DNA of 64,000 nucleotides, from positions 1 through 64,000 of the forward strand of contig SVMM01000019.1 in assembly GCA_015067435.1 (NCBI GenBank), read 5' to 3'. Under the pieces are notes generated by a model. It was given only the letters and a program-made list of their open reading frames with translations. It had not been told where the DNA came from and searched no databases. Shown one piece after another: positions 3,789-64,000 of this stretch. A program made the position numbers and the translations under genes. The stretch comes from Oscillospiraceae bacterium. GTDB lineage: Bacteria > Bacillota > Clostridia > Oscillospirales > Oscillospiraceae. The stretch's first letter is position 1, and every line of letters starts with the position of its first letter.

Positions 3789-4925
3789 ATGTCCGACCAC
3801 ACCGATTTCAGCTATTCCGACTACCAGTACCGGGACGCGGACAGGCGCCGCGCGGACGCGGAGGCCGTAGCGCGTGAGTTTGCCAAATACGGCGCGGGCT
3901 ACTTCGGCAACGGCAGTGAGTTCGTCACCGGCCGCGACGAGTATGGCGGCGCGAAGCTCGACACGGGCTACATCCGCGCAGCCGCGAAGCGCAAGGCGGA
4001 GGAAACGGCGCGGGAGAAGCGCAACGACGAGGCGTTTTTGCGCCTGCTCGCAAAAAACACATCGGGACGGCGCGACAGCTCTTACCTCGACTTGGACGGC
4101 GAGACCGTCTACTTCCCGCACCGCGGCTCTGTCGCCGGCTTCCGGCTGATCCACCGCAGCGGCGCGGACTGCCGCTACGCCTTCTCCCCCGCGCGCGTCG
4201 GGCCGTTTCCGACCGATATGGACGGCCTCGGCGAAATCGGCGAGATCCGGGTCGAGCGGTATTACCCCTGCCCGTTCTGTTTCGCCGGAACCTCGGTCAT
4301 GGACGAGCTGGAGCGCGGCGACGCCGCACGCGTGGAGGTGATCCGCCGTTCCCTGCGCACGAACCAATGGCGCTGGGAGTGCTACATGAAGGGCGCGGAC
4401 AGCGCGCCGAGCGTGAGCGACAACGTTCAGATCGAGACCTCGTCGCTCTTTACGCCCTATGCGGAGTTTGTGCGGCTGCTCGGCGCAAATCCAGACATGG
4501 ACGGCGTCGTCATGTCGGGGGCGGACGTCGAGCGGCGTAAACTCGACAACGGGGTTGGCGACTACATCCGCGCGAAATTCGACTGCACGGCGAAGAAGCG
4601 CCCCGCGGAGGAGCTCGGCAGCGTGCTCATACAGCTCTCGCTGTTCCGCTACCGGAAGGCCATTCCCTTCGAGATGTTCCGCAAGCGGGCGAAAAGCGTT
4701 GTCTACGACGATTTTGAGAAGGTCTGCTCCGACCTGCATCTCGTCAACATGTGGGCGCAGAACGTCACGCGGATCGACGACGGCTGGGCGTTCGATCTCG
4801 TCGGCGGACTGATACCGAAGAATTTGCCTCGCGTCGCGGACGGCATCTACATGGTCTGCCTCGACGTCGGCGGCGCGCGGATGTACCGGGACGCCAAATT
4901 CGGCGTTTACGGTTTTATTGAATGA
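3789..4925 (+). CDS. Unknown protein, tandem paralog B (CPFCF motif)
   Basis: This 378-residue protein is a paralog of the preceding gene, starting 17 bases after its stop with a GCGGAGGAAACAGC ribosome site. The shared N-terminus (SDHTDFSYSDY, GAGYFGNGSEF, RAAAKRKAEET) is about half identical. The IHRSGADC ... ARVGPF block and CPFCF align with the LHKSGSC ... AKLGPF and CPYCF blocks of paralog A. The C-terminal 170 residues are unrelated to those of paralog A, so the pair keeps a common front and swaps its back half. No signal peptide, membrane segment or known catalytic motif is visible. Function is unknown; a two-domain architecture with a conserved N-terminal adaptor is inferred. An IS copy begins four bases after the stop codon. 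Confidence 0.75.
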   Translation: MSDHTDFSYSDYQYRDADRRRADAEAVAREFAKYGAGYFGNGSEFVTGRDEYGGAKLDTGYIRAAAKRKAEETAREKRNDEAFLRLLAKNTSGRRDSSYLDLDGETVYFPHRGSVAGFRLIHRSGADCRYAFSPARVGPFPTDMDGLGEIGEIRVERYYPCPFCFAGTSVMDELERGDAARVEVIRRSLRTNQWRWECYMKGADSAPSVSDNVQIETSSLFTPYAEFVRLLGANPDMDGVVMSGADVERRKLDNGVGDYIRAKFDCTAKKRPAEELGSVLIQLSLFRYRKAIPFEMFRKRAKSVVYDDFEKVCSDLHLVNMWAQNVTRIDDGWAFDLVGGLIPKNLPRVADGIYMVCLDVGGARMYRDAKFGVYGFIE

Positions 4926-4928
4926 AAA

Positions 4929-6028
4929 GGGCGCGTTGCAGAAAGAAAAATCTGCAACGCGTCCCTTTTCGCGCCGAAAAGGCGCCGGACGTGGAAAACA
5001 ACCGCCCAAAACGCGGCGCCTGCACATAGCAAAGCCAGCCCCGGAGCATTTTCCGGCGCTTTCTGTGGAGAATATTCAGTTTTTCAGGCTATGCGCTGTC
5101 GAGTTGCGAGAGATGCGTCTGCAACCGTCCGTTTTCCCGCTTCATCCACAGCTTTTTCAGATTGAATCCAAGCGCGAGAAAGAACAGCTCTGTCCGCACG
5201 TTCTTCCTGCCGCGCGTGAGAAATCTGCGAAAGCCAAAATCGGTTTTCAGCAGTCCAAATGCACCCTCCGCTTGAATGGAGCGGCACAGACGCAGATAGA
5301 CGCCACGCTCGGTAGAGATATTCTCCTGTGAGGCCTTGCGCAGCTCTTGCAGCGTCTTGTTTACGCGCAGTTCCTTCGGCTGCTCCGCGTCCTTTGCCTG
5401 ACAGCACTTTTCCCGCAGCGGGCAGCCCGTGCAGTCCTCGCAGCGATACCACGCGGTCGTCACCTCGCGCCTGTTTCGCAGCTCCGTGCACTCGCGGCGC
5501 AGCGGAAGTCTCCGCCCGTTGGCGCAGATATAGCAATCTTCGTCGGCGTCGTAGGTCATGTTTTCCATCCGGCCGAGCTGCTTCCTGAATTTCGGACTCT
5601 TTTGCTGCTCGTAGCTGGCAGGCTTGATAAAACTCATCTGCCCGTTGCGAATGTGGTCTTCCTTCATCCGCATAATCGTGGTGTCTGTGTCCGTCTTGGA
5701 ATCGCTGTTGCGTTCCTTGCCCATGACATCGAGCTTTTCCTCGTACTCTGCCCAGCGGCAACGCAGCTCGTCCAGCTTTTCCCAGTCCTTTTGTTCCGCG
5801 CTCTTGCGTTTGCCGCTGCCGTGGACAAAGTCGATGTTCTCGGCTGCCTGCGCAGTTTCGTGATCCAGCGCAAGTACCACTTGACCGTGACGCTCATACG
5901 TCGTATAGTGGTCTTGCGTTTTTGACTGTTTTTTCACACCTACAGCATAACGCAAAAAGCGAGGCCAGGAAACCCTTTTGGGGCTCCTGACCTCATCTTT
6001 TTTCAGCACGCTATTTTGCAACGCGCTC
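4929..6028 (-). mobile_element. IS1182-like element, internally deleted, copy 1 (1.1 kb)
   Basis: The ends are short inverted repeats, GGGCGCGTTGCAGA at 4929 and (reverse complement) GAGCGCGTTGCAAAAT at 6028. The left end also folds on itself: GCGTTGCAGA is followed eight bases later by TCTGCAACGC, a hairpin just past the transposase stop. The element carries a shortened IS1182-type transposase on the minus strand. A second, shorter copy lies in opposite orientation at 10742-11396 and matches both ends. I see no convincing target-site duplication. Confidence 0.8.
5089..6021 (-). pseudogene. IS1182-family transposase with internal deletions
   Basis: The open frame is 310 codons, whereas IS1182 transposases are usually about 450-550. 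The C-terminal half is clearly of this family: SFIKPASYEQQKS, the Cys-rich block (CYICANG ... CEDCTGCPLREKC), and the final EGAFGLLKTDFGFRRFLTRG helix pair. The front lacks the family's usual N-terminal domain. At MKEDHIRNGQ-MSFIKPASYE, two regions normally separated by a long stretch including the core of the catalytic domain are joined directly. The only start is a TTG inside the terminal repeat. The protein should not be an active transposase. The same junction is present in copy 2, so the deletion predates their divergence. Confidence 0.75.
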
Positions 6029-6054
6029 TTGTGTTTTGTTTCCGTACGCGCCGG

Positions 6055-8232
6055 TCACTGCGCCAGCAATTGGCAGTAACGCTGCATGATCGCCGAAACC
6101 TCGGCGCGGGTCGCGCTGTCCTTCGGGGCGAGCCTGCCGTCCTTTCCGTTGACGATGCCCTTCATGGTCACCCAGCACATCGGCTCATACGCCCACTCCG
6201 CAACGTCCGCCGCGTCGGGGAAATCGAGCGGGAACGCCCATGCGCCGGCGAAGCCGAAGCCCTTGCTCTGTGCATAGCGGTAGAGGATCGTAACAAGCTG
6301 CTCGCGGGTCAGGGGATCGTCAGGCCCGAACTGAAGCTTGTTGTAGCCCTTCATGACGTTCTGCTCCGTCACCCAGCGGATCGCGGGCACGTACCAGCCA
6401 TCCGGGACGACGTCGGTGTAGGCCAGCGCGACGGAAGAGGCGGGACGCCCCTCCAGGTTCCAGAGGATCTGCGCCATCTGCGCGCGGGTAATGATGCCGT
6501 TCGGCGCAAACAAATTATTGCCCATGCCCTGCATGATCCCGTGCTCCAGCACAAAATGCACGCCGTCGTGATACCATGCCCACTTATCCAGATCGGCGAA
6601 GCCGGTCATGGGACAGGTGTTGTCCCGCGGACAGCCATTCGAGCCGTTCGGGTCGCCCGTGCCCGCGGACGCCGCAGTCGTTTGGAACGTTCCCTTGACC
6701 CTTACGTCGCAGGCGGGCATCGTAAAGGTATATACGCCGCCGTTTTCCGTGAGCGGCAGCTTGTAGCCGCGGACGGCGGCGGTAACGGTCAGCGCGGCAA
6801 GGTCGTAGCCATCCTCCGGCTTGGCGGTCAGCGTGACCTTCGTTCCCTCCTCGGCGCGGATGTGATCCGACTCGACGGTTCCGAACGCCGTGCGCAGCAC
6901 CTCAACGTAATAACTTTTCGGTCCGTCATCTTGCTCGTGCGGCGGCGGGTTCGTGGGCGCGGGCGCGGGCGCGATCCTCTCCCTGGCGCCGGCGATCAAA
7001 TAGCCGGAGAAGTTATCCGCGTAGATATAGAGCAGCTTTGCGGCAGGGTCGAACACCCAGCCTTCTCTAGTGGCTGTGATCAAGCCGGTTTCGGTGTTGA
7101 CCAGTCTACGGGAGCCCAGCGGATTGAGCTCCGTAATATCGCCGCCGTGCTCACGGTAGACATGGAATTGCGTGTCCCCGTTCTTGATGGGGAGGATAAT
7201 CTCCAGCCTTTTGGGGAGCTTTTCCGTCAGCTGGGGTTTCGTCAGCTGGATGGTGGTCGTATCGGTGCTCCCGTAAGGGGTGACCTTGAGGTTGACGTTG
7301 ATCAGAAGCTCCGTCAGATGCGGGTCTTTGCCGAGATCGCTGCTCCTCGCGCGGCTTCTCATCTCGTCCATCGCGGCTGTTTCCGCGGCCGTAGCACCGC
7401 TGAACGGCTTCAACTCCATGTTCACTTCAACGTGGGACGAGGAAAGCACGAGTCCAAGGTCATTGAGCTGCGTGGTAAGCCAACTCCATCCGTTCAACGC
7501 TGCCGCCAGCTCGTCAAGCCCGCCGACCACGGTGTCCGCAACCTGCAGATCCGCCACGGAACTTGCGTCGGTTGCCGGCATGGTGATCGCTGTTGTGACC
7601 GCCTCGCCTTTCACGATGACCGCGGAGGTTTTAATCAATTCGGATGTTACGCTCGGGTAGTTAGTGGGATCAAACTGGTGATTCTGCGTCGCCACCAGAT
7701 TGTAGATGCCGTCCGGATTGCCGGGGAAGGTTACGGAGCCGCTACCCCTGCCGTTGTCGGAGTCGCTGATCGTGACAACCTTTTTTGCCAGCTCCTTGCC
7801 GCCGCGCATGAGCTGCAGCGTCACATCGCCCTGAAACGCGTCGATCGTCACCTCAATGTTATGGCCCCATTTGGCATAGAGGTCGAGATCGCCATTGACC
7901 CCGGCGCCGAAATCATACGGTATGGTGCAGGCCTCGTCCTTATACCAGCCGCCGAAAGAGAGACCGTCCTTGGTCGGATCGACTGGCTTGCTCGCCTGGC
8001 CGCCCTCCGTGACGTATTGCGGATTCGGATCGATCGCGCTGCCGCCGTTGGTATGGAAAGTGACGTTGTAGACCGTGCTCCCGTAAACGGCGGAGCGCCT
8101 GATTATTGAGCTGCCGTCCTCGCTCCATGTCTCCGCCATCGCGTTGAGCGGCAGCAGCCCCAGCGCCATGACCAGCGCCATGCAGAGCGACAGAAAACGC
8201 CGCTTTCTCGTTTGAATTGTCTGTTTGTCCAT
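6055..8232 (-). CDS. Secreted SLH-domain protein with an InlB-type repeat
   Basis: This 725-residue protein is probably attached to the cell wall. The ATG at 8232 is chosen because GGAGTGAGG lies seven bases upstream. A signal peptide covers about residues 1-34, ending LPLNAMA. It is followed by one InlB/Listeria-Bacteroides repeat (VTFHTNGGSAI ... GGWYKDEACTIPYDF ... DLYAKW), a long middle of unrecognised beta-rich modules, and a segment resembling the small beta repeats common in such proteins (VTLTAKPEDGYDLAALTV). Three SLH motifs close the protein (DLDKWAWYHDGVHF, YTDVVPDGWYVPAIRWV, FPDAADVAEWAYEPM), which in other bacteria bind pyruvylated secondary wall polymers. It is the last gene of a three-gene minus-strand operon with a glycosyltransferase and a membrane protein. 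Confidence 0.85.
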   Translation of the reverse strand: MDKQTIQTRKRRFLSLCMALVMALGLLPLNAMAETWSEDGSSIIRRSAVYGSTVYNVTFHTNGGSAIDPNPQYVTEGGQASKPVDPTKDGLSFGGWYKDEACTIPYDFGAGVNGDLDLYAKWGHNIEVTIDAFQGDVTLQLMRGGKELAKKVVTISDSDNGRGSGSVTFPGNPDGIYNLVATQNHQFDPTNYPSVTSELIKTSAVIVKGEAVTTAITMPATDASSVADLQVADTVVGGLDELAAALNGWSWLTTQLNDLGLVLSSSHVEVNMELKPFSGATAAETAAMDEMRSRARSSDLGKDPHLTELLINVNLKVTPYGSTDTTTIQLTKPQLTEKLPKRLEIILPIKNGDTQFHVYREHGGDITELNPLGSRRLVNTETGLITATREGWVFDPAAKLLYIYADNFSGYLIAGARERIAPAPAPTNPPPHEQDDGPKSYYVEVLRTAFGTVESDHIRAEEGTKVTLTAKPEDGYDLAALTVTAAVRGYKLPLTENGGVYTFTMPACDVRVKGTFQTTAASAGTGDPNGSNGCPRDNTCPMTGFADLDKWAWYHDGVHFVLEHGIMQGMGNNLFAPNGIITRAQMAQILWNLEGRPASSVALAYTDVVPDGWYVPAIRWVTEQNVMKGYNKLQFGPDDPLTREQLVTILYRYAQSKGFGFAGAWAFPLDFPDAADVAEWAYEPMCWVTMKGIVNGKDGRLAPKDSATRAEVSAIMQRYCQLLAQ

Positions 8233-41031: not shown

Positions 41032-41126
41032 GGTTATGCGTAGAATTATACCCATGATAGATAATGGGAGAGAATTGGATCATATTACGCCACATTCAAC
41101 AGGTCAGACTGATTGGGAGGTACTGC

Positions 41127-44100
41127 ATGATGAATACTCGAAGGCGGCACGGGGGCTTCTCCCTCGGTGAAGTAGCCATTGTTGTTGCGATCATAGCCAT
41201 TTTGATCGCCGTGGCGATCCCTACTTATTTCAGGCAGCTGGAGCAGAATCGGGACGCCGCGACGGTGAGCAATCTCCGTCTTGCCTATGCCGAGGCGAGT
41301 GCCGACTACATCAAACACGGATCCGCGACAACGGGCGAGTACGTGGTTGTCGTCGATGAAGTGCGCTTTGAAAGCAAGGACGCCACTCTCGATTATTCGG
41401 GAGACGAGCTCCCCTTTGATATCAACAGCGAAATCCCGGGGCCCGGCGTGCACAAGGTTGCGTTCCATTTCAACACCGGCACAAGGGATTATATCACAAT
41501 CGACGGAGAAGAGGCCTCCACCACGCCGACTGCTCCCACAGAGGAAAAATATTGGACGGTGACGTTCCACGCCGCGCCAAACGGCCGCATCGGCGGTCAG
41601 GAGACGAAATCGGTCAAGGTCAAGGACGGCGAGACTGTGAGCTCGCTGACGCCCAGCCCCGCATCGGCGGAATACACCTTTGACGGTTGGAAGACAGTAA
41701 GTGCCGATGGCGCAAGTTACCTCTTTACAAGTGCGGTTACAGCTGATCTGGATCTTTACGCCCACTATACCAAGGAGGAAACCTGGAATGTGACGTTCCA
41801 CGCGGGCGAACATGGACATTTCTCTGAGGGCGCGACCAGAGTGGTCCCGGTCAAAAAAGACGGTTCTCTGGGCAAGCCCGCCGGCCTGATCTGCGATCCC
41901 GGTTGGGAGCTTGCCGAATGGCAGCTGAGCAGCACCGCCGTCACTTGGCCCATCGAAAAGGTCACCAGCAATCTTGAATTGACCGCCACCTATAAGAAAG
42001 CGGAATGGACTGTGACGCTCAACACCGGAGACCACGGTGAGTTCTCTGACGGTCAAAAGCAGCATGTGCTTCAAGTTGAAAAGGGCAGTAAACTTACTGC
42101 GCCGGAGCTGAATATCGAGGACGGATGGGTTATTGATGCCTGGAAATCCGGAACCTCCAGCATCACTTTCCCGATCGAAGTCAACGGCGATCTTTCTCTG
42201 ACCGCTACCTACACGCGGGAAAAATGCACCGTGCGGTTCAACGGCCTCGGCGGCAGGTTCTCCGACGGCTTCACCTCGATGACGAAGGAGGTCGAAAAGG
42301 GCGGCAAGGTTGATAAACCGGCTTATGCCGCACCGGCGGGAACCACCTTTGTTTGTTGGGCAAAGCAGGACGGCAGCGACATCGGAGATTTGGAGTGGCC
42401 GATCACCGTCACCGAAAACATGAACCTGTCCGCCGTTTACAGCTGGACTGTGACCTTCCATGCCGAACCCGGCGGCAAGTTCCCGGACGGTGAAGAGACG
42501 AAGACGGTTCAGGTCCGGCACGGCAAAGAACTGAGCGAACTACCGGCGGATCCTGTTTCCAATGTCGAAGATTCCTCCTTCCTGGGGTGGAAGACCGGCA
42601 GCTCCTCCGGCCCGGACTACTCATTTGAGAAGAAGGTCACCAGTGCCTTCGACCTCTACGCTGCGTACAGCGAAGTATACTACGACGTGACGTTCAACGG
42701 CAACGGAGGAAAGTTCTCGGACGGCTCACTCACCAAGACGTATAGCATCCTGAAGGGCACCGAACTGAGTGAGCCGACGAACTATACACATCCGGCGGGC
42801 TCTAAATTTAAGGGCTGGGAATTGAACGGCTCCATCGTCGAGAATTGGCCGATCGCCGTCAACAGCCATCTCAATTTTATCGCTGTCTACGAATGGCCGG
42901 TGACATTCAAGGCAGGCAACGGCAAGTTCCAGGACGGCTCGAACACAAAGACGGAGTATTATCTGCCCGGACAATGTGTGGTTGATACTCCAAAGCCCTC
43001 CTCTCTGAACGGAATGACCTTTGCCAATTCGTGGAAACCGGAGGGTAACTATACGATCGACGATGAGATCGACGGCCCGCGTGAATTTACCGCTGTGTAC
43101 AAATGGAAGGTGACGCTTAATCCGAAGAGCGGAAGTTTGACAGGCGATAAAACGCTCTATTTCGATAACAACGCGAGCATGAGCAAGCCGAGCTACACCG
43201 CGCCGAGCGTGAACAACGTCAAGGCTGAATTTGTCGGCTGGGCGAAGAACGGCAATTATAACGATATCATCACAAGTTGGCCGATCAATGTCACCGGAAA
43301 TCTCGATTTGACTGCGGTCTATCAGTGGACAGTAACGTTTAACGCCGGCACGGATGGCAGAATTACAGGAAACAAGCCCAACCCAGTGAAGGTATATGAC
43401 GGCAGTAATATAACCAAGGAACAATATCCGGGCAATCCTACGCCATACGATTCAGATTATGTTTTTGTCGGCTGGGAGTATAACGGCAAAACATACGAGG
43501 ATGCAGATGATATTAGCGCTATCCAAGTCACCAGTCCGATCACTTTTAAAGCCAAGTATAGGGATGATGGCGGATGCTTTGCCTCGGGAACGCTGATTAC
43601 GTTGGCGGACGGAAGCCGGAAACCGGTGGAGGAACTCACCTTCGATGATATGCTCCTGGTGTGGAACTTCTTCGATGGCAGCTATTCCGCAAGCCCTGCT
43701 GTTGCTCTGGTCGATCATGGCGAGGATGACTACACTGTAGCGAAGCTCCTGTTCTCGGATGGAACGCAGCTCAGCATCATCGGGGATCACGGCGTGTTTG
43801 ACTACGATCTAAACCGCTTTGTCTTCCTTACGCCCGCCATCGGTGCGGACTACATCGGTCACCGCTTCGTTCGCGCCGATGTGGATGGCACATATGATGT
43901 AGTCACGTTGGAGAGCATCGTGGTTTCGCAAGAGCGGACGCACGCTTGGAGTATCGTAAGCGCCGGTGCGCTCAACGCCTTTGCGTCCGACATGCTGACG
44001 CTGGCTCCTCCGTCGGAGGCCTTCAACTGGATTCCCATGGGAGAAAAGCTGCATTATGATGTCGAGCAGCTCCAGCGTGAGATCGCCGAGCACGGAACCT

Positions 44101-44249
44101 TCGAGTATGCGCAGTTTGCTGATCTGGTCACGGAGGAGCAATTCGAAGCTCTCAACGGCAGATATCTGAAGGTCGTTGTGGACAAGGGACTCATGAGTGT
44201 GGATGATCTTTGCGAAATGGTGAAGACGTATCTCCCGTTCATGCAGTAA
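41127..44249 (+). CDS. Type IV prepilin-InlB repeat-Hint fusion protein
   Basis: This 1040-residue protein starts at 41127 after GATTGGGAGGTACTGC. Residues 1-35 are a type IV prepilin signal: basic leader, cleavage after Gly10 (RRHGG then FSLGEVAIVVAIIAILIAVA), with conserved Glu at mature position 5. A pilin-like head (about 35-155) leads to nine tandem InlB/Listeria-Bacteroides repeats of 65-80 residues (about 160-813), each with WTVTF or similar, F-W and AxY signatures. At Cys817 a Hint domain begins: CFASGTLITLADGSRKPVEE, then IIGDHGVFDYD and a THAWSIVSAGALNAFASDML end. The intein-type His-Asn plus nucleophile end is absent, as in hedgehog-like or type B bacterial intein-like domains. A tail of about 80 residues follows. 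PilD at 51 kb should process it. Base composition is more AT-rich than the neighbours. Confidence 0.9.
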   Translation: MMNTRRRHGGFSLGEVAIVVAIIAILIAVAIPTYFRQLEQNRDAATVSNLRLAYAEASADYIKHGSATTGEYVVVVDEVRFESKDATLDYSGDELPFDINSEIPGPGVHKVAFHFNTGTRDYITIDGEEASTTPTAPTEEKYWTVTFHAAPNGRIGGQETKSVKVKDGETVSSLTPSPASAEYTFDGWKTVSADGASYLFTSAVTADLDLYAHYTKEETWNVTFHAGEHGHFSEGATRVVPVKKDGSLGKPAGLICDPGWELAEWQLSSTAVTWPIEKVTSNLELTATYKKAEWTVTLNTGDHGEFSDGQKQHVLQVEKGSKLTAPELNIEDGWVIDAWKSGTSSITFPIEVNGDLSLTATYTREKCTVRFNGLGGRFSDGFTSMTKEVEKGGKVDKPAYAAPAGTTFVCWAKQDGSDIGDLEWPITVTENMNLSAVYSWTVTFHAEPGGKFPDGEETKTVQVRHGKELSELPADPVSNVEDSSFLGWKTGSSSGPDYSFEKKVTSAFDLYAAYSEVYYDVTFNGNGGKFSDGSLTKTYSILKGTELSEPTNYTHPAGSKFKGWELNGSIVENWPIAVNSHLNFIAVYEWPVTFKAGNGKFQDGSNTKTEYYLPGQCVVDTPKPSSLNGMTFANSWKPEGNYTIDDEIDGPREFTAVYKWKVTLNPKSGSLTGDKTLYFDNNASMSKPSYTAPSVNNVKAEFVGWAKNGNYNDIITSWPINVTGNLDLTAVYQWTVTFNAGTDGRITGNKPNPVKVYDGSNITKEQYPGNPTPYDSDYVFVGWEYNGKTYEDADDISAIQVTSPITFKAKYRDDGGCFASGTLITLADGSRKPVEELTFDDMLLVWNFFDGSYSASPAVALVDHGEDDYTVAKLLFSDGTQLSIIGDHGVFDYDLNRFVFLTPAIGADYIGHRFVRADVDGTYDVVTLESIVVSQERTHAWSIVSAGALNAFASDMLTLAPPSEAFNWIPMGEKLHYDVEQLQREIAEHGTFEYAQFADLVTEEQFEALNGRYLKVVVDKGLMSVDDLCEMVKTYLPFMQ

Positions 44250-50749: not shown

Positions 50750-51544
50750 TCAATAACCCAAAAGGCCCAGATACCACCGGATCACGCCTCCGCCGTACAG
50801 CAGCACGAGCGCCGCGGCGGCGGCGATAGCGGGACCGAACGGGAACGCCTGCCCCGCCTTCTTTTTCATGGCAGCCGCCAGCAGCAGCCCCAGCACGCAG
50901 GCAAGAAGCAGCGCCATCAGCGTACCCACGAAGCCCAGATACAACCCGACCACGGCGAGCAGCTTGATATCCCCGCCGCCGAGGGTGTCCTTTTGCAAAA
51001 TCTTGTCCATCACGAGCGACACGCACAATATGCCGCCGCCAAAGACCAGTCCCGCGCCGACGCACCGGAGCACGTCTCCCCAGCCGGCGCCGGAAAACGG
51101 CGCGGCGGCGAGCCACGCCAGCGCGGCGATGATCAGGCAGCCGTCCGGAATGATCTGCACGTCGAGATCGACCAGCGACAGGCAGAACAGGCACATCAGA
51201 AACACAAGGTTCCGCGCCGCGATGATCGTAAAGCCAAAGCGCAGAAGGCACGCGAGCGTCAGCGCCGCGCACAGCAGCTCGGTGAGCGGGTAGCGCACGG
51301 AGACCTTTTCGCCGCAGTAGCGGCAGCGGCCGCGCAGGAACACCCAGCTGAGCACCGGGACAAGATCGAGCGCGCCCAAATCATGCCCGCACTTCGGGCA
51401 GCGGCTGCGGCCCTTCGTAAAATCCTCGTCGCGGGCGATGCGCCACGCCGTGCAGTTGAGGAACGAGCCCATGCACGCCCCGAGGATCACGGCAAGCACA
51501 CCCGAATATATCATGAGCGTGCGCCCAAGTTCGGTAAACGTCAT
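50750..51544 (-). CDS. pilD: Prepilin peptidase PilD
   Basis: This 264-residue membrane aspartic protease cleaves prepilin leaders after Gly and methylates the new N-terminus. It starts at 51544, overlapping the upstream stop (ATGA). The N-terminal methylase segment has GSFLNCTAWRIARDEDFTKG and two CxxC pairs (CPKC, CRYC) that bind zinc. Two catalytic Asp motifs are present: LSLVDLDVQIIPDG and LGGGDIKLLAVVG. About eight helices are visible. Its substrates in the window should be the pilin, three minor pilins and the pilin-InlB-Hint protein. Confidence 0.95.
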   Translation of the reverse strand: MTFTELGRTLMIYSGVLAVILGACMGSFLNCTAWRIARDEDFTKGRSRCPKCGHDLGALDLVPVLSWVFLRGRCRYCGEKVSVRYPLTELLCAALTLACLLRFGFTIIAARNLVFLMCLFCLSLVDLDVQIIPDGCLIIAALAWLAAAPFSGAGWGDVLRCVGAGLVFGGGILCVSLVMDKILQKDTLGGGDIKLLAVVGLYLGFVGTLMALLLACVLGLLLAAAMKKKAGQAFPFGPAIAAAAALVLLYGGGVIRWYLGLLGY

Positions 51545-52275
51545 GACCAGCTGTCCCCCGTCCAGCCGACGCCGAGATTCCAAACGGCACAATGCTCCTC
51601 GTCGGCGTAGAAGAAATATTGCAGCGTCTCCCCGTTCACGAGGTAAAACGCGATCACGCCGTCGTAGTTCGAGGCGTATTTCGTGCCGCGCGAGAGCCCG
51701 ATATCGGAGTTCGTGCGCGCGGCGTCCAGAGCCTTCCCGTTCAGCGTGACGCGAATCGCCTTCGGAACCTCACGGCCTTGCAGACGCTCCGTGTCCAACT
51801 TCTTCTGAATCTGCTCAAACGCGCTCTCCGCGTTCAGGCGGGTGCGCTGTTTTTCGTCCGGATCGTGCAGCGCGCAGACGACGGTGAAATAACCGTCCTT
51901 GTCCGGCAGGAGGTAACAATCCCCGCCGCCGGGGCAGAGCTGCGACCACGGCTTGGTATCCTGCGTCGCCGCCAGCTTTGCCTCCTCCTCGGAAATGCCG
52001 CCGCCGGCGTTCACCTCGGCGTTGACGATCTTGCGCTGCGCCTCGTTGACCGCGATCCGGCATCCCTCCGTCTCGGCGATCTCCCGATGGCGCCGCACGA
52101 AGGAGACGCCCGCGGTGAGCATCAATGCCAGCACAGCCAGCGCAAACGCGGCAGCCGCGCCCAGACGCAGCAGCTTTTTCCGCTTATCCCGCCGCTTCTG
52201 CTCCAGCAAGCACGCCAGCTTCTCCGCCTGCGCGATCTGTTGCTCGTTCGTCAGCTCGTCCACAGCGGATCCCAT
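51541..52275 (-). CDS. Unknown membrane-anchored protein of the pilus operon
   Basis: This 244-residue protein has a basic cytoplasmic segment (AEKLACLLEQKRRDKRKKL), one helix (about 45-67, LGAAAAFALAVLALMLTAGV) and an extracytoplasmic domain of about 175 residues with two close cysteines (LCPGGGDCYLLPDKDGYFTV). Although the CPGGG ... PDKDGYF stretch recalls the C-terminal part of some pilins, there is no prepilin peptidase site. The start at 52275 is preferred to an in-frame one 15 codons upstream; neither has a strong ribosome site. It lies between the pilin and pilD with an ATGA overlap to pilD. Function is unknown; a pilus-specific assembly factor is plausible. Confidence 0.7.
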   Translation of the reverse strand: MGSAVDELTNEQQIAQAEKLACLLEQKRRDKRKKLLRLGAAAAFALAVLALMLTAGVSFVRRHREIAETEGCRIAVNEAQRKIVNAEVNAGGGISEEEAKLAATQDTKPWSQLCPGGGDCYLLPDKDGYFTVVCALHDPDEKQRTRLNAESAFEQIQKKLDTERLQGREVPKAIRVTLNGKALDAARTNSDIGLSRGTKYASNYDGVIAFYLVNGETLQYFFYADEEHCAVWNLGVGWTGDSWS

Positions 52276-52409: not shown

Positions 52410-52763
52410 TCAGTTGATTTGCACGTTAGAGGGGTCAAACTTGATAACCGCAGAACCATCGACGCCAGTCTTGGTAATAGTAATAGTACCGGCAGTATTA
52501 TTAATCGCAAGGGATGTATCAGAATACGTTCTTGCACCTGCCAGCGTACCCTGGCTAATAGTGATAGATCCGCCGTCGTTGTTCATCATCGCATCAGCAA
52601 CGAGCTCGGCATACTTGGAGCGGATGTTCGCCTCGTCGGTCGCGAACTGCGCCTTCTTGAGCTGAGCGCCGAAGGTGGGGATAGCGATGGCGATCAGGAC
52701 CGCGATGATCGCGACCACGATCAGCATTTCTGCCATGGTAAAGCCTTTGTTGTTCTTCTTCAT
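52410..52763 (-). CDS. Major type IV pilin
   Basis: This 117-residue prepilin has the leader MKKNNKG, cleaved before FTMAEMLIVVAIIAVLIAIA with Glu at mature position 5. It is short and simple: the helix (to about residue 55) is followed by a Thr/Ser/Ile-rich beta domain (GSITISQGTLAGARTYSDTS ... ITITKTGVDGSAVIKFD). No cysteines, so no disulfide loop. It sits between pilC and the unknown membrane gene, with AAGGAAGCACAG upstream. Size, position and the downstream hairpin make it the likely major subunit. Confidence 0.9.
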   Translation of the reverse strand: MKKNNKGFTMAEMLIVVAIIAVLIAIAIPTFGAQLKKAQFATDEANIRSKYAELVADAMMNNDGGSITISQGTLAGARTYSDTSLAINNTAGTITITKTGVDGSAVIKFDPSNVQIN

Positions 52764-54134: not shown

Positions 54135-55187
54135 TTAAAGGGCGTTCTTTTTGATGTACTCCGCGTCGTGGGCGTAGTGGATCGCCATATCCTTGGTAAT
54201 GGTGCCGGAACGCACCAGACGAACCAGCGCCTGGTCCATGCTCTGGCCGCCGATGCCGGAGGAGGTGGCGACCGCGTTGGCAATCTGCGGGGTGTTGCCC
54301 GCGCGGATCATGTTGCGGATAGCGTCGGTGACGATCATGAATTCGCACGCCAACACGCGTCCGCCGTTTTTCTTGGGGATCAGCTGCTGCGTCAGCACCG
54401 CCTGCAGCGTCATGGACAGCTGCAAACGGATCTGCGTCTGCGCGTCAGCCGGGAACACCTGCACCATACGGTCGATGGAGTCCGCCGCGCTGCCGGTGTG
54501 CAGCGTGCCGAACACAAGGTGTCCGGTTTCGGCTGCGGTGATCGCGGTTTCGATGGTGTCGCGGTCACGCATTTCGCCGATCAGAATGACGTTCGGGTCT
54601 TCACGCAGTGTCGCGCGCAAGCCCATCGCGAAGCTCTGGGTATCCTTGCCGACCTCGCGCTGGTTGATGGCGCAGAGATCGGGCTTGTAGATGTACTCAA
54701 CGGGGTCCTCCAGCGTGACGATGTGCGCGCGCTGGGTGTGGTTGATGGAGTCGAGCAGCGCCGCCAGCGTCGTGGACTTACCGGAGCCGGTTTCGCCCGT
54801 GACAAGCACGATGCCCTTGTGGAGATTGATGAGCTTGGGCACCTCCGGCGGCAGGCCGAGGTTGTTGACGTTGGGAATCTCGTCGCGCAGCAGACGCAGC
54901 GCCACGCTGGGCACGCCCTGCTGTTTGAAGATGTGGATACGGCAGCGGTTGTCGGCGTAGGTCTCCGCCGCGTCCAGCTCACCCGTGTCTTCGAGGAACT
55001 TATATTCCTTCTCGTTTCCGGCGAGGAAGCGCGCGACCGCAAAGCAGTCGTCCGGGGTCATGATCGCGGTGTCCATGTCCTGCAGCTGGCCGTCCTTGCG
55101 GTACTTGGGAGGCAGGCCGCAAATCAGATGAATATCCGACGCGCCGTCGGCCTTCGCCTTGGCGACCAGTTCTTCAACTGTCATCAT
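54135..55187 (-). CDS. pilT: Pilus retraction ATPase PilT
   Basis: This 350-residue hexameric ATPase powers pilus retraction. Motifs: ASDIHLICGLPPKYRKDGQL at the N-terminus, Walker A VTGETGSGKSTTLAALLDSI, the Asp box LEDPVEYIY, Walker B NVILIGEMRDRDTIETAITA, the His box GHLVFGTLHTGSAADSIDRM, and the PilT-specific AIRNMIRAGNTPQIANAV. GGAGGAGCACCC precedes the ATG. It lies between pilB and pilC. Confidence 0.95.
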   Translation of the reverse strand: MMTVEELVAKAKADGASDIHLICGLPPKYRKDGQLQDMDTAIMTPDDCFAVARFLAGNEKEYKFLEDTGELDAAETYADNRCRIHIFKQQGVPSVALRLLRDEIPNVNNLGLPPEVPKLINLHKGIVLVTGETGSGKSTTLAALLDSINHTQRAHIVTLEDPVEYIYKPDLCAINQREVGKDTQSFAMGLRATLREDPNVILIGEMRDRDTIETAITAAETGHLVFGTLHTGSAADSIDRMVQVFPADAQTQIRLQLSMTLQAVLTQQLIPKKNGGRVLACEFMIVTDAIRNMIRAGNTPQIANAVATSSGIGGQSMDQALVRLVRSGTITKDMAIHYAHDAEYIKKNAL

Positions 55188-55202
55188 AATGGGTGCTCCT
55201 CC

Positions 55203-56918
55203 TCAGCTCTCCTCGTTGACGATGCGGCGGACCTCATCCGGCGAGGTGGTTCCCTCCAGCATCAGGCGCATGGCGTTTTCACGCAGGGAAACAAAGTTGT
55301 TTTCGGGCTTGCGAAGCTCATTCTCGATAGCGTCATGGCCGCGCTGCTCGTAGATGAGCGCACGGATGGCGCGCGTGACGGGCAGCATCTCAAACACGGC
55401 GATACGGCCGCGATAACCTGTGTTGAAGCAGTCGGGGCAGCCGCGGCCGCGGTAGAACTTGAGGTCGGGCACGTCCTGCATATCGAACTCCTCCGCCTCT
55501 TCGCGGGTGGGCGTGTACGCCTCGCGGCAGGAGGGGCAGATGCGGCGCACAAGGCGCTGGGAAATGACGCCCTTGAGCGCGCCGGCGATGATGTACGGCT
55601 CCACGCCGATGTCGCGCAGACGGTCGATCGAGCCGATGGCGTCGTTCGTGTGGATGGTCGAGAGCACCACGTGGCCCGTGATGGCGGAGCGCATGGCGAT
55701 CTCGGCGGTTTCGCCGTCACGGATCTCGCCGATGGCGATGATATCCGGGTCCTGACGCAGAATCGCGCGCAGGCCGTTGGCGAAGGTCATGCCGGTCTTT
55801 TCGTTGATCTGCACCTGGTTGATGCCGTCGATATTGTACTCGACAGGGTCTTCCAGCGTGACGAGGTTGACGTCCGGCGTATTGAGCTGGTTAATCATGG
55901 CGTACATGGTCGTGGTCTTACCACTTCCGGTGGGGCCGACCAGCAGCAGCACGCCGTTTCGCAGCTTGAGCATCTCGTCGTACTTTTCCAGATCCGGTCC
56001 GGTCAGGCCGACGGCGTCCTTCGTGACGCGTCCGCCGGACTTGTCGAGGATACGGGCGACGATCTTCTCGCCATAGACCGTCGGCAGCGTGGAAACACGC
56101 ATGTCGTAGTCGTTGCTCTTGATGCGCACGTTGAAGCGGCCGTCCTGCGGGATACGGTGCTCCGCGATATCAAGGCCGCTCATGATCTTGATACGGGAGA
56201 TAACAGCCGCCTGAATGTCCTTCGGCACGGTGAGGATCTCGCGCATGACGCCGTCGATACGCATACGAACCTGCATCTGATCCTCGCGCGGCTCCATGTG
56301 GATATCGCTCGCGCGCTCGTTGATCGCGCGCTCCAGCACGGAGTTGACCAGACGGATCGCGGGCGCGCTGTTCGCGTCCTCGCCGCCGAGCTGCGTGGAC
56401 ATGAAGTTGTTCTCGACAACCGTCGTGCCCTCGCCCGTGGAGCCGACCTCGCGCTTCATGTCGGCGATCGCCTTTGCCGCGCCTTCGTTGCTGTAGAGCA
56501 CCTGGATCGCATGCTCGATGCCGGCGCTCGTCGCCACCATCTGCACGATCTTGCGCTTGGACGCGCGGCGCGCCTCCTCAGCAGCATAGAAGTTCAGCGG
56601 GTCCGCCATGGCAAGGTACAGTTCGTCCTTGACCATGCGTACCGGCACGACGTTGTACTGCTTGGCAATGTTCTTCGGCAGTACCTGCGCCATTTCGGTG
56701 GGGATGTTGACCTTCGTCAGATCGATGAACTCGATGCCGAGCTGCATTTGCAGCGCCTCGATCAGGTCGTTTTCGGTGATAATGCCGTTTTGGATCAGCA
56801 CCGTACCGAGACGCTCCTTCGTCCCCTTCTGCAGCTCGATGCCGCGTTCCAGATCCTCCTGCGTCATGATTCCGGCGTTGATCAGCAGCTCGCCAAGATG
56901 CATATAACCCATAATCAT
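55203..56918 (-). CDS. pilB: Pilus extension ATPase PilB with MshEN domain
   Basis: This 571-residue assembly ATPase has an N-terminal MshEN module: GYMHLGELLINAGIMTQEDL and then KERLGTVLIQNGIITENDLIEALQMQLG, matching the two-part RLG ... G ... L ... Q pattern that binds c-di-GMP in MshE and some PilB proteins. The ATPase core has GPTGSGKTTTMYAMINQL (Walker A), TLEDPVEYNI, PDIIAIGEIRDGETAEIAMR (Walker B) and a tetracysteine zinc motif (CPSC ... CPDC). It is the first gene of the operon, with the promoter at 56964-56992. Confidence 0.95.
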   Translation of the reverse strand: MIMGYMHLGELLINAGIMTQEDLERGIELQKGTKERLGTVLIQNGIITENDLIEALQMQLGIEFIDLTKVNIPTEMAQVLPKNIAKQYNVVPVRMVKDELYLAMADPLNFYAAEEARRASKRKIVQMVATSAGIEHAIQVLYSNEGAAKAIADMKREVGSTGEGTTVVENNFMSTQLGGEDANSAPAIRLVNSVLERAINERASDIHMEPREDQMQVRMRIDGVMREILTVPKDIQAAVISRIKIMSGLDIAEHRIPQDGRFNVRIKSNDYDMRVSTLPTVYGEKIVARILDKSGGRVTKDAVGLTGPDLEKYDEMLKLRNGVLLLVGPTGSGKTTTMYAMINQLNTPDVNLVTLEDPVEYNIDGINQVQINEKTGMTFANGLRAILRQDPDIIAIGEIRDGETAEIAMRSAITGHVVLSTIHTNDAIGSIDRLRDIGVEPYIIAGALKGVISQRLVRRICPSCREAYTPTREEAEEFDMQDVPDLKFYRGRGCPDCFNTGYRGRIAVFEMLPVTRAIRALIYEQRGHDAIENELRKPENNFVSLRENAMRLMLEGTTSPDEVRRIVNEES

Positions 56919-59004: not shown

Positions 59005-62000
59005 TTATTCAGCCCACTGCGCGTAGAGCGTGACTGCGCCGGAATTCACAGCCGCTTTGAAGGTTTCGAGATTGATAAACTGCTGATGCAGCGTGCGATC
59101 CGGGTTGACGAGGATATTTCTATTTCCGCCTGTCGCCGCGTCGAAGAAGCCCATAAACTTTTCCATGGTCTTTCCTTCGGGCATGAGCTCTGTTTCAATC
59201 ATGGTTCTCAGTTCCTCGTCGCTGATTCCCAGAAGGCTGGCAAACTGGGTCGAGCCGGCCGTCAGGCCAAGCTGGGTGAACGTACCGTCATCATTCTTCT
59301 TGTAGAACTGTCCGTCTTTCAGGCAGTAGTACGGGGATTCATACGGCTCAGCCTTGCCGTCAAGCGTCACGCTCACCTTTTTGTAGACGTTGACCGTTGC
59401 GGAGCTCGCGGGTTCCATAAAGGTGTAGATCGGCTCAGCGGTGCCGACGCGGTACAGCTCGACCTTTACCTCCGTGCTGTAGACGCCGGGGACGATCGTG
59501 CCCGTGGTCACGACCTGCTCATTGGGGAACGGCGTCTTGTTGTTGGTATCCGGCTGGGACGTACGCGTCTCGGTGAAGACGACGCTCCCGTCCTTGCTGT
59601 AGGTCGTCGTTGTCACCCAATAGCATCTGGTCGCACTGTTGTCAAGGCTGAGCAATGCTTCGCCATAGGCATTGACCGCGAACAGATCCGTCGGGCGTCC
59701 ACCCACACCATCGGCGAGATCCCAGTCGCGCGTACCGCCCTGCACGTCAATCACGCCGCTGCTGAGCGTATACTCGAAGGACACTTTCCCCTTTTCTCCC
59801 TCGGTGGTGGGTCTCAAGATTGAAATCACTTCCTGATTCGGTTCAAGTGCATAGCCCAGGAAACTGATCGAGGGCGCCTTTGCGTTGAAGTTTGCCTTTG
59901 TGGTCGTTTCAAACGTGTGGTAGAACACGACAGGCACGTTTGCGAACTTCACAATGCCCTGAACCTCGCAGCTCCAGGGAACCTGCATGTAATAGAGAAT
60001 TTCCACGGTGCAATAGTCCGCCGTAAGATCGCACGCGTTTCCGTCCTTCTCCAAATTAGCCAGGGCACTCATCGCGTCATACTGGGTGAGCTCTGCCAGC
60101 GGGTGATTCTCCGGATAGAGTTCATCGGTGTAGGGGTTCTTGCCATAAGTGGGCACTTTCACCTGAAGATGCGCACCGATCGGCGCCCTGGGGAACCCGC
60201 ACTGGTCGCTGGTTAGGGTCATATACGTAATATTGTCTTCGAGATCCTTCAGAGCAAAGCGGATGTTGTATGCCATTTTTCCCGCGGTCTGCTTCCAGCA
60301 CGCAACCAGATACATTTCCGTTCCACTGACCGCAACGGGCGAGTTCGCGTTGAACGCCAGCTCAAGATTGCCCGGGCTGGTATACTCCAGGCTGGTCGGG
60401 TCGGAGACGCTGACCTGCTGTGCGGTGGCGATACGCCAACCGGCGAACTCAAACGCGTCGCCGTTCTCGTTTGTCACCGTTGCGGGAATACCAAGCTCCT
60501 TGAGCTGCTCATCGATCGTATAGCCGACCAACGTCTTGATGGAAACCTCCTTGGCCTGATTGTAGCGTTCCGTGATCTGAGTTTGGTCGTCCTCCGTGTA
60601 CATCATCGTGTAGCAGTGCACGGTAACCTCGCTGTTCGACCAAATGGCAAAGACCGTCAGGTCACCGGCGGGCATCTTCACGCTGTGTGGGTTCTTGGCA
60701 TCCTCCGGCACGGAACCCTCGTGCGCGATCAGCGTGCCCGTCTGCCACTTGTCGTAAGTCCCGCTGGCGGCTCGGTCGCTCTGCGTGGTGCCGCTTTCCC
60801 ATGTCCACCACTCGCCCTTGCCGTCGCTCCGCGTGTTCCAGCCGACAAAGTGGTAATCCGCGCTCAGATTGATGGGCATGTCGGCGGAAGTCACATCCGG
60901 CAGGCTGTCCAACGTCGCGCCGTACAGATAGGTGTCCTCTTTGTCGTTGAGCAGACCCTTGAAGTACACGTTGTACATCTCGCGCGTGTTGAAGATACTC
61001 ACATTGGCAGGGAGAGAAGCGCCGGAGTATGTACTCGAGAACGAGGTCGTGTTGCCGGTGTTGTACAGATTTGCCGAATACCCGGTGTACTTATTGTTGT
61101 TGTTAAAACCAGTTGCATTGTTTCTGACAACATACTCCGGGTTGAACTTGAACATCTTGCGTTCGTAGTAATCTGAGCCCCAACTGAGCGATTGATTCCC
61201 GTTGAGTTTCGTCCTCAGATTGGTGTCTCGATCGTTATCGGTCTTTTCCAGATAGAAGGAGACATAGTTGCTGGCCGAACTGGTTCTAGTGCCCTTAATA
61301 TTGAAGACCGTTGAACCAGCATAATCATCGTCCTTGATCCAGCTCTCAAAGAAGAAGCCGTCCAGCGTGGTAAGGGTTGAATTGCCTATCACATGATTTT
61401 TGTTCTCGCTCGGATACATTTTCCACAAATACATACCGTTGCCCGGCCAGACATACCCATTCGGCCACTTAGCGCTTTGATAAGTGGAGAACGGTGCCTC
61501 ATACAGGCCGACAAAGGTGGGAAGTGTGGCGACCTTCATCAGGCCGCCGTCCTGCCAGCTGTATCCTCTGTCGTCGCCGGTGCCGGTTCGCGTCAGGGCA
61601 TTTACCTCGGTCGTGGTGTAGAACGGGATCAGGACACAGTGCGAGGGACTTCCGCTGATGGGAACCAGCTGTCCAAAGACATAATTCGAGCCGCCCGTTC
61701 TATAGTAGAATATATCTTCGTGTTCACTGGCAAGGAGTTTGGTTTCCAGCGAAGAGTCCTTTGTATACCATCCGTCCGTTGTTGCATCATCAAAATACTT
61801 GTCAAAAGCCTTGTCAAAATCGGACGTAAATTCATCAATGACAGCATTATTGTCGATCACATAGATCTTGCAGTCGGTGCCATACAGTTTTTTCGTGAAT
61901 TTACCGCTGCTGCCGGAAATACTCTGCTGAATATATCCGCCGTACGGCAGCACACCGCCTGTTTTGGGCGCCTGATCGGAAAAGCTGCCCGATTCCATCA

Positions 62001-64000
62001 AGAAGTTGAACGTAATTTTGTTTCGGGTGAAGTACAGCTTGATAACCGCAGTGTTGGAGCCGCCCACCTCAAAATCAAAGTCGTAATATTTTACGCCTTT
62101 ATCGTCCGTGAATTCGCTCTTGGCGCTGTTGTAGGTCAGCTGCGGGCATTTCTTCGTGCCGTCGTCCTTATTCAGATATTCACGCGGATCATCTTTGCTG
62201 TTGATCGTATGCAGGCACGTCCTTTTGGTATCTTTGTACACCTTATTCATCAGTTCGGAGTACGTGTTATTCGCCACCTTCGTATAGTTAGAGACGGTCA
62301 CCTCCTTGTCGATGAAATAGTAGTTGTACAGATAGTAGTGCTCGGTTCCCTTCGTGGCCGCGTCCACCGGATCCGTAACGTCCTGAACATAGATCTCCAG
62401 ACGGATCTTCGCCATTGTCACCGGCTCCCACTGCGCCACCGCGATGTAGTCGCCCGGTTGCATCAGCTTATTCTCTACCACATAGCCGTAATTCGTCGTA
62501 TCGGACGCATTCATATTGACCGTAAGCTTAAGATCCGGATCAGCACCGGCTTTGTAGTTTTCGATCTTGTACAGATACCACCCGGAAAGCTGATAGTTCA
62601 TGCGGAACACAGTGTCCGCGGGGATGTCCGTAATGCCGTCCAGATTGGTGGCGCCGCTCGCCTTAAACTTCGCGGTGATATCGTAGCCGCGCTTCAGGCA
62701 GTCCTTCAGAAGCTTGCCATAATACACGGGGAGCGGCTCGATAACGCCCGTTCTGGAGGTGCCGTCGTAGTAGATACCGCCGTTAAGGTCAAAGTTGAGC
62801 GTGTACTCGTCGCGCTCATAGAAAACACTCAACGGGTTGGTCGCCATCGTAGAGGGGTCGACGATCGTGTTCTCGATCTTCTTGAGCGTAAAGCCGTCGA
62901 ATTTGAGCGCACTGACGTAAGGCCACACCGAAACACCCTGCGGGAAGTTCATTGCGACGACCGCTTTGTACTTATTCGTAACGCTGTCGATGTTCGTATA
63001 ATCGACGTTGTCGTAGTCGATCGCGGTGGTATCATCCACGTACTGCACGTCTTTCAGCTTGGTGTTGATCTGCTGGGCAAGCTGCGCAAGCGTCTTTTCG
63101 GCGTCCTCATACTTATCCGAGCCGGTCGTGGAGTGCAGGAAGTAGAAATTGCCCGTAACGGGGACGGGGCGCGAATCGAACAGCACGCTGTAGGTATACG
63201 CCTTGGAGATATCGACCGTGACCTTGCGATTGGTGTAGTCGGCAATGGAGATTTTCTTCATCTCATCGCTGGTAAACGGCGTTTTGCTGTCCTTAAAGCC
63301 CCAGATCGGCGCAATGCCCGTGTAGGCTTCGGTATAGTACGTCTTCAGTATTTCGTCAGTAATGATCTCGAAGTCAGGTTCGCCCTTATCATTCTCAAGC
63401 TTGTCAAGCGTCAGCGTCTTGTAGGGATAATCGGGTTCGTTGCGCTCGACAATGGGGTCGACCTCATAGACATAGATGGGGTGCGGGATGCGGTCGGCGT
63501 AATAGTAGCGATCCAGATACTTCTGGGTAGTCATCGTCAGATCCGGGTTGCCGACGCTGTCCTGGAAATTCTCGACCTCAAAGCGGTTGTAGAGGATAAC
63601 AACGTCGAACCGCTGCGTCTCACGATAGAGCGCATAGAGCTTATCCGCGCTGGCGGGGAGAGTCACCTTCTCGTTCTGCGTATTCGGATCTTCGGGAAGG
63701 GTGCTGCTCAGCGCAGTCTGTCCCTGCACCGACGCAATTCTCGTGGTGTCATCCTCGATGTTTGTGACATACCACCAATATTTCTTGGAGATCTTCAGGT
63801 TCGAAGTATTGTCGATCGCGTTCGCCCAGTCGTCGGCATGTGCCTCGGCTTCCCTGATCTGTGCCGCTGTGAACCAGCCGACAAAGACCTGATCCTGCGC
63901 GAGACGCGAATCCGCTCTCGCCAGCACGACAGAGCCGTTGCGATAGCCGTCGAAGGTATCGATCGTGGAGATACTCGCCGTCTCGCCCGTACCGCCGAGC
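59005..64000 (-). CDS. Giant InlB-repeat surface protein of the pilus locus (partial)
   Basis: At least 1664 residues are in the window; the frame is open to the right edge, so the N-terminus is missing. The visible part has a series of InlB/Listeria-Bacteroides repeats and longer beta modules: LYALYRETQRFDVVILYNRF, EYTLNFDLNGGIYYDGTSRT, YHFVGWNTRSDGKGEWWTWE, VTVHCYTMMYTEDDQTQITE and a final NSGAVTLYAQWAE. It ends four bases before the frame of the PilX-like protein. No sortase motif, SLH or membrane anchor is at the C-terminus, so retention via the pilus (N-terminal prepilin signal off the window, or minor pilins) is the likely mode. Function as an adhesin is inference. Confidence 0.85.
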   Translation of the reverse strand, partial: LGGTGETASISTIDTFDGYRNGSVVLARADSRLAQDQVFVGWFTAAQIREAEAHADDWANAIDNTSNLKISKKYWWYVTNIEDDTTRIASVQGQTALSSTLPEDPNTQNEKVTLPASADKLYALYRETQRFDVVILYNRFEVENFQDSVGNPDLTMTTQKYLDRYYYADRIPHPIYVYEVDPIVERNEPDYPYKTLTLDKLENDKGEPDFEIITDEILKTYYTEAYTGIAPIWGFKDSKTPFTSDEMKKISIADYTNRKVTVDISKAYTYSVLFDSRPVPVTGNFYFLHSTTGSDKYEDAEKTLAQLAQQINTKLKDVQYVDDTTAIDYDNVDYTNIDSVTNKYKAVVAMNFPQGVSVWPYVSALKFDGFTLKKIENTIVDPSTMATNPLSVFYERDEYTLNFDLNGGIYYDGTSRTGVIEPLPVYYGKLLKDCLKRGYDITAKFKASGATNLDGITDIPADTVFRMNYQLSGWYLYKIENYKAGADPDLKLTVNMNASDTTNYGYVVENKLMQPGDYIAVAQWEPVTMAKIRLEIYVQDVTDPVDAATKGTEHYYLYNYYFIDKEVTVSNYTKVANNTYSELMNKVYKDTKRTCLHTINSKDDPREYLNKDDGTKKCPQLTYNSAKSEFTDDKGVKYYDFDFEVGGSNTAVIKLYFTRNKITFNFLMESGSFSDQAPKTGGVLPYGGYIQQSISGSSGKFTKKLYGTDCKIYVIDNNAVIDEFTSDFDKAFDKYFDDATTDGWYTKDSSLETKLLASEHEDIFYYRTGGSNYVFGQLVPISGSPSHCVLIPFYTTTEVNALTRTGTGDDRGYSWQDGGLMKVATLPTFVGLYEAPFSTYQSAKWPNGYVWPGNGMYLWKMYPSENKNHVIGNSTLTTLDGFFFESWIKDDDYAGSTVFNIKGTRTSSASNYVSFYLEKTDNDRDTNLRTKLNGNQSLSWGSDYYERKMFKFNPEYVVRNNATGFNNNNKYTGYSANLYNTGNTTSFSSTYSGASLPANVSIFNTREMYNVYFKGLLNDKEDTYLYGATLDSLPDVTSADMPINLSADYHFVGWNTRSDGKGEWWTWESGTTQSDRAASGTYDKWQTGTLIAHEGSVPEDAKNPHSVKMPAGDLTVFAIWSNSEVTVHCYTMMYTEDDQTQITERYNQAKEVSIKTLVGYTIDEQLKELGIPATVTNENGDAFEFAGWRIATAQQVSVSDPTSLEYTSPGNLELAFNANSPVAVSGTEMYLVACWKQTAGKMAYNIRFALKDLEDNITYMTLTSDQCGFPRAPIGAHLQVKVPTYGKNPYTDELYPENHPLAELTQYDAMSALANLEKDGNACDLTADYCTVEILYYMQVPWSCEVQGIVKFANVPVVFYHTFETTTKANFNAKAPSISFLGYALEPNQEVISILRPTTEGEKGKVSFEYTLSSGVIDVQGGTRDWDLADGVGGRPTDLFAVNAYGEALLSLDNSATRCYWVTTTTYSKDGSVVFTETRTSQPDTNNKTPFPNEQVVTTGTIVPGVYSTEVKVELYRVGTAEPIYTFMEPASSATVNVYKKVSVTLDGKAEPYESPYYCLKDGQFYKKNDDGTFTQLGLTAGSTQFASLLGISDEELRTMIETELMPEGKTMEKFMGFFDAATGGNRNILVNPDRTLHQQFINLETFKAAVNSGAVTLYAQWAE

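Follow-up and report, generated by a model that had tools for sequence, protein, structure and literature searches.

What can an intein-like domain do at the far end of a pilin? The question is raised by a gene in a 64,000-nucleotide stretch of an Oscillospiraceae bacterium genome (GenBank assembly GCA_015067435.1, contig SVMM01000019.1, positions 1 to 64,000 of the forward strand; hereafter the window). Its 1040-amino-acid product starts like a type IV prepilin, continues through InlB-type repeats and ends in a Hint domain followed by a helical tail. Based on sequence comparison and structure prediction, we read this protein as a pilus adhesin subunit that may end in an active module resembling the Hog domain of Hedgehog proteins, with the tail taking part, and we give this reading an even chance. 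The gene and its parts are as follows.

41127..44249, forward strand: whole gene of the prepilin-InlB-Hint-tail protein (open frame; GGGAGG ahead of the ATG)
41127..41156, forward strand: prepilin leader, residues 1-10, predicted cleavage after Gly10 (sequence; N_methyl; identity to the genome's own pilin)
41157..41552, forward strand: mature pilin part, residues 11-142, a hydrophobic helix with Glu5 and then a part taken as globular (sequence)
41553..43562, forward strand: nine InlB-type (Flg_new) repeats, residues 143-812 (pattern; Pfam)
43563..43574, forward strand: short linker DDGG ahead of Cys817 (translation)
43575..44012, forward strand: Hint domain, residues 817-962, with Cys817 at 43575-43577, His888 at 43788-43790 and His912 at 43860-43862 (profile, alignment, fold)
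44013..44246, forward strand: helical tail at the C-terminus (residues 963-1040), conserved together with the Hint domain (alignment, model)

AlphaFold2 predicted a Hint fold from Cys817 on (predicted local distance difference test, pLDDT, 94.5), and the modelled domain fitted that of fly Hedgehog at 1.8 A over 139 residues. When the window protein was searched alone, the Pfam Hint models remained below cut-off (PF01079, E 0.11; PF05203, E 0.026). Against a gathering cut-off of 29.7 bits, PF01079 scored 12.5 bits for the window protein and 21.4 bits each for copy L029 and a phage copy. A profile of the module family described below matched Hint chains in the PDB at 7e-8 and Hedgehog (1at0) at 0.004, and PF01079 was the Pfam model touched by most family members (29/38 at E ≤ 1, best 2.2e-7). 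The original prediction, made from the letters alone, had placed a Hint domain here; the family profile and the predicted fold agree with it, although the Pfam search with the single protein was below cut-off. It had also made this assignment depend on a model of residues 817-960, in which the Hint fold is present.

In the family alignment, whose members are 30-53% identical to the window copy, the Cys predicted at Hint position 1 (Cys817) is conserved in all 36 rows that cover the position, and the block-B His (His888) in 37/38 rows. His912 (34/37) and Asp892 (36/37) are further marks of the family. The His-Asn end typical of inteins, which had been described as missing, is indeed absent from the 38-row alignment, and the window protein has LTLAPP at this place. 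The Hint domain is followed by a conserved 78-residue helical tail (residues 963-1040) that the original prediction overlooked; Lys1015 is present in 33/38 rows and Lys1020 in 37/38. Because the Cys and His are kept, the His-Asn end is absent and a conserved helical region follows the Hint domain, a Hog-like plan fits. The domain had been likened to Hedgehog or type B bacterial intein-like (BIL) domains. Of this likeness the Hog-like plan stands (Hint domain, C-terminal helical region, exported partner), but the Hint domain and tail together form a family of their own inside the Hint superfamily.

The Hint domain with its tail is a portable module, for which we drew on 38 copies: those of 30 genomes from the window's class, which we read as Clostridia, and that of one further record (L003). 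One-sequence searches matched 2/250 genomes of the window's taxonomic family (226-amino-acid query covering Hint domain and tail) and 2/18 genomes of the genus (query from genome G080). A first profile matched 20/394 genomes of the order, 17 of them at E < 1e-40, and 22/391 genomes of the class, 14 of them at E < 1e-40; the own genome is included in each of these counts. A broader profile at E ≤ 1e-10 matched the window's own genome only, among 398 drawn from the phylum. Record L003, a contig from a metagenome-assembled genome labelled Bacteroidales, carries the module (52%), with misbinning possible; the gene after that module looks camelysin/TasA-like.

The module forms the end of the protein in 38/38 copies, with at most 42 residues after it. 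The 28 frames with both ends range from 732 to 4500 amino acids, counted stop to stop, and in all 28 a signal peptide, a prepilin-like start or a membrane segment was seen by eye ahead of the module. The N-termini joined to it are unrelated, comprising pilin, SipW/TasA, SLH, subtilase, Ig-like and InlB types, as in the following copies.

Window protein and L030: prepilin ahead of the module
L081 and L082: prepilin-like GVTL(V/I)ALV start, with neither Glu5 nor an N_methyl match, then Big_2 domains
L029: SLH ahead of the module
L075 (Pfam) and L080 (by eye): subtilase ahead of the module
L005: InlB repeats ahead of the module
L033 (just below cut-off) and L031, L038, L032 and L041 (by eye): SipW/TasA-type starts ahead of the module

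The module was also found in one phage lineage. On an IMG/VR contig (L119), the gene at 4384-6687, which comes after terminase and portal, ends in the Hint domain and tail, and two further phage contigs (L118 and L120) show the same gene order with modules that are 96-100% identical. The phage module is part of a 767-amino-acid protein encoded between the portal and a polyvalent nuclease/ART protein. This polyvalent protein is at least 1994 amino acids long and has PBECR and ART domains.

At the other end of the window protein, the translation of 41127-44249 on the forward strand is free of stops, in line with the single continuous 1040-residue frame originally described. A ribosome-binding-like GGGAGG lies 6 bases 5' of the ATG at 41127; translation from an upstream ATG at 41064 would give a longer frame but is less likely, and the start at 41127 is preferred. 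The leader, MMNTRRRHGG/FSLGEVAIVVAIIAILIAVAIP (the slash marks the cut), has the form of a type IV prepilin start with Gly10 before the cut and Glu at +5, as had been claimed. Residues 5-64 align with 45% identity over 60 residues to the genome's own small pilin at 52410-52763 on the reverse strand (BLASTP E 1e-6, against this single sequence). N_methyl reached 24.2 bits in the genome search (cut-off 21.2); on the whole window protein it gave 18.2 bits, below cut-off. Among the marks of a type IV pilin, the protein has the leader with Gly/Phe and Glu5, and the genome has both a prepilin peptidase and an assembly ATPase. These belong to a pilus cluster on the opposite strand, 4-22 kb from the window gene, which comprises the prepilin peptidase, two T2SSE ATPases, the small pilin and three further prepilin-motif proteins.

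50750..51592, reverse strand: PilD-type prepilin peptidase, which should cleave the leader (A24_N_bact 1.6e-31; Peptidase_A24 3.5e-12)
52410..52763, reverse strand: ordinary small type IV pilin of the same genome (N_methyl E 1.3e-8)
54135..56918, reverse strand: two T2SSE ATPases of the pilus cluster, 54135-55187 and 55203-56918 (PF00437 E 8.2e-49 and 9.9e-133), which we read as PilT and PilB type

The window gene itself seems to stand alone, as the genes on both sides read, by eye, as housekeeping. Beside the pilus cluster is a second giant prepilin fusion of 2510 amino acids (motif RSG/VTLAEVLIVIAIIG), at 59005-64000 of the window on the reverse strand and extending to contig position 66537; no Hint module was found at its C-terminus.

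The original prediction named no other described pilin of this architecture, but the joining of a pilin to a Hint domain does not stand alone: a prepilin carries the same module in a second genome (G579, copy L030), where its gene lies after another prepilin gene, and two more genomes (L081 and L082) have prepilin-like starts that lack Glu5. We placed these copies in an unrooted tree of 38 rows (the window copy, one phage copy and 36 further copies, L003 among them; L043 was too short and was left out). The window copy falls within a supported clade of 11 rows (96/98), L030 in a different clade of 14 rows (99/96), and the pair L081 and L082 in a third place. Since the prepilin-type copies occupy separate places, pilin and module were paired on more than one occasion, at least two by this tree; N-termini exchanged in either direction would give the same picture. 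With the E-value line at 1e-100, which was set after the hits were known, a PilB-type ATPase was found in 7/30 module genomes, including 4/4 genomes with prepilin or prepilin-like starts vs. 3/26 others (p 0.0013). Because this ATPase accompanies the prepilin-module genomes, the prepilin-type starts are likely, albeit not certainly, genuine pilin starts.

Between these two ends, the claim of nine InlB-type repeats is borne out by the [WYC]-x-V-[TR]-[FL] pattern, which starts at residues 143, 220, 294, 367, 440, 519, 590, 660 and 734 (nine occurrences vs. at most one in any of 1000 shuffles), and by Pfam Flg_new (PF09479; E 1.1e-32, 112.4 bits vs. a cut-off of 27). In the 12 residues before Cys1, the Ser/Gly fraction is 0.417 compared to 0.17 upstream, and it is higher in 30/35 family members. 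A further InlB-repeat protein, a 734-amino-acid frame, was noted at 7870-8070 of the window on the reverse strand.

Several observations weigh against an active Hog-like module on a pilus subunit. In the PDB profile search, two rows that are not Hog (designed protein 6g6o and 8w20) outscored Hedgehog, and by fold, intein, BIL and Hog score almost equally. The NCBIfam intein-bearing models touch 27/38 members (best 5e-7); given that Pfam leans toward the Hedgehog Hint domain (29/38) and NCBIfam toward intein-bearing models, sequence does not choose Hog over intein kinship. The block-B Thr (TxxH), a Hedgehog active-site residue, is replaced by Ile, Val or Leu in 37/37 rows, which counts against a fully Hedgehog-like site; this Thr is usual in the Hint superfamily and, to our knowledge, is not known to be obligatory. 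No PDB entry matched the tail by sequence or fold; it resembles the sterol recognition region (SRR) or adduct recognition region (ARR) of Hog domains in place and helicity only. The phage copy beside the portal gene is not in an evidently exported protein, and its position next to that gene suggests that the module may not depend on export. If the limit of the ATPase search itself (1e-20) replaces the line chosen afterward, the association is 4/4 vs. 8/26 (p 0.018), and with the two strict prepilins only it is 2/2 vs. 10/28 (p 0.15), or 2/2 vs. 5/28 (p 0.048) at 1e-100. The active site of hSHH is given as D243, T267 and H270, and the SRR itself is described as having no homologues in the PDB (PMC7906309).

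One residue bears on how an acceptor could be activated. The DSDPE subfamily has an invariant Asp (14/14 rows) opposite position 46 of 1at0, or fly residue 303 by the chain numbering, in a weak match (E 0.59), and we regard it as a lead. Fly residue 303 is an Asp that we take to be cholesterol-activating. The window subfamily, as a further point against a Hedgehog-like site, has Val or Ile at the aligned position, with only Asp, Asn or Ser plus His as neighbors, and its V-D-H is shifted by one or two relative to the position of fly Asp303. A general statement in PMC7765530 names "Asp or His" as activating the acceptor.

Under the preferred reading, the prepilin leader would be cut and the subunit would enter the pilus, with the repeats and the module outside the cell. 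The Hint domain would convert the Gly816-Cys817 peptide bond to a thioester by an N-S acyl shift, with His888 acting as the block-B His, and a nucleophile, either water or an acceptor held by the tail, would resolve this thioester with the tail's help. The Hint domain and tail would then be freed, and the adhesin would have its C-terminus at Gly816, either free (water) or carrying the acceptor. The tail would stand in place of the Hog sterol or adduct recognition region, binding the acceptor or positioning the module at the surface. The original prediction had likewise proposed release or covalent attachment, and either may apply. More tentatively, as a reading less likely than not, we suggest that the module could be a bacterial, and in some cases phage, counterpart of the Hog domain, a portable unit that would cut exported filament and adhesin proteins and join their C-terminus to an acceptor picked by the tail (envelope lipid, glycan or neighboring protein), giving sortase-free covalent capping or anchoring. 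No sortase match at E ≤ 1e-5 was found in 13/23 tested module genomes, a count with no background rate, and the window's own genome has one.

The alternative that survives best, although we hold it rather unlikely, is plain hydrolytic autocleavage, in which water resolves the thioester, the module is a shed cap, and the tail aids folding or keeps the module inert until export. It calls on the same conserved Cys and His residues, and the gene neighborhoods of the module copies show no general partner gene. Hedgehog without its SRR was crystallized after hydrolytic cleavage, and type B BIL domains cleave N-terminally, according to PMC7906309 and PMC7765530. Against it, the tail is strongly conserved and in each of the 38 copies forms the protein's end to within 42 residues; a cap would not seem to require this much.

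It is improbable, in our judgment, that the Hint domain is catalytically dead and is retained as a stable terminal domain that serves binding or assembly, for instance as a tip cap or a binding part. The family-wide loss of the block-B Thr and the Pfam Hint scores below cut-off for the window protein would suit such a role, but one would not expect a scaffold without activity to preserve just Cys1 and the block-B His, as the alignment does in 36/36 and 37/38 rows. Protein-protein cross-linking is less probable still: the new C-terminus would be passed to a Lys in a neighboring pilin, in a protein of the wall or host, or in the tail (Lys1015, Lys1020). The tail lysines are conserved, although they may be structural, and cargoes held at their N-terminus, such as pilin and SLH proteins, might profit from a reactive far end; a Gram-positive adhesin uses a thioester for covalent binding (PMC4450167). 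Splicing or excision of the intein or BIL type is barely conceivable: it would share the fold, and TIGR01445, the intein N-terminal model, touches 21/38 members and an intein-bearing model 27/38, but the C-terminal His-Asn is missing and at most 42 residues after the module in 38 copies leave no room for a C-extein.

The preferred reading, a pilus adhesin subunit with a Hog-like module, can be set against known systems. With Hedgehog and Hog proteins (PF01079 Hint domain plus SRR or ARR) the module shares the Hint fold, an exported N-terminal partner, Cys1 and the block-B His, and an extra helical region directly after the Hint domain at the C-terminus; it differs in being bacterial, lacking the block-B Thr, having a tail without a match, scoring below the PF01079 cut-off in the window protein and having no known acceptor. 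Unlike BIL domains of types A and B (C. thermocellum 2lwy; T. thermophila BUBL BIL2 6y75), it ends the protein with its own conserved tail, and unlike type A it lacks a C-terminal His-Asn. Inteins differ from it in having a C-terminal Asn, a +1 nucleophile and a C-extein. The window protein resembles type IV pilins in its leader, Gly/Phe, Glu5, hydrophobic helix and machinery in the same locus, but it has about 900 extra residues with repeats and an autoprocessing-type module. In thioester-domain (TED) adhesins the thioester is an internal Cys-Gln one within a different fold, and these adhesins are not known to be cleaved off. What they share with the module is a surface-adhesin thioester as a covalent hook (PMC4450167). 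A comparable subgroup of secreted bacterial proteins, with divergent C-terminal Hint domains, was set apart from inteins, Hog and BIL domains by Buerglin 2008 and noted earlier by Dassa and Pietrokovski; some of these proteins have signal peptides (PMC2362128). The members listed there belong to Myxococcus, Stigmatella, Reinekea, Photorhabdus, Serratia and Yersinia and have an upstream region in common (PMC2362128), whereas the N-termini here are unrelated.

No paper describing the Hint-plus-tail family, or a pilin that carries a Hint domain, was found in a search that reached few subscription papers. As Hint, Hog and BIL domains, InlB repeats and pilins are already known, we place the Hint domain and tail as a new variant of the Hint superfamily. 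If active, the module would give these bacteria a self-contained means to cut and cap or attach exported proteins, and it would represent a Hog-like plan in bacteria, which bears on the origin of Hog domains, a question left open in PMC2362128. Since the same ending occurs on many other exported proteins of bacteria, the module may provide an unstudied route by which surface proteins are cut or chemically capped.

Individual copies of the module show further variation. Two to three adjacent module genes of family f69 occur at L076, L077 and L078, suggesting local duplication. Two copies are truncated, with L042 lacking the Cys block and L043 retaining the end of the Hint domain and the tail only. 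In L039 (5235-9671, reverse-strand coordinates), an N-terminal region that looks TIR-like by eye is combined with transmembrane segments and a C-terminal module.
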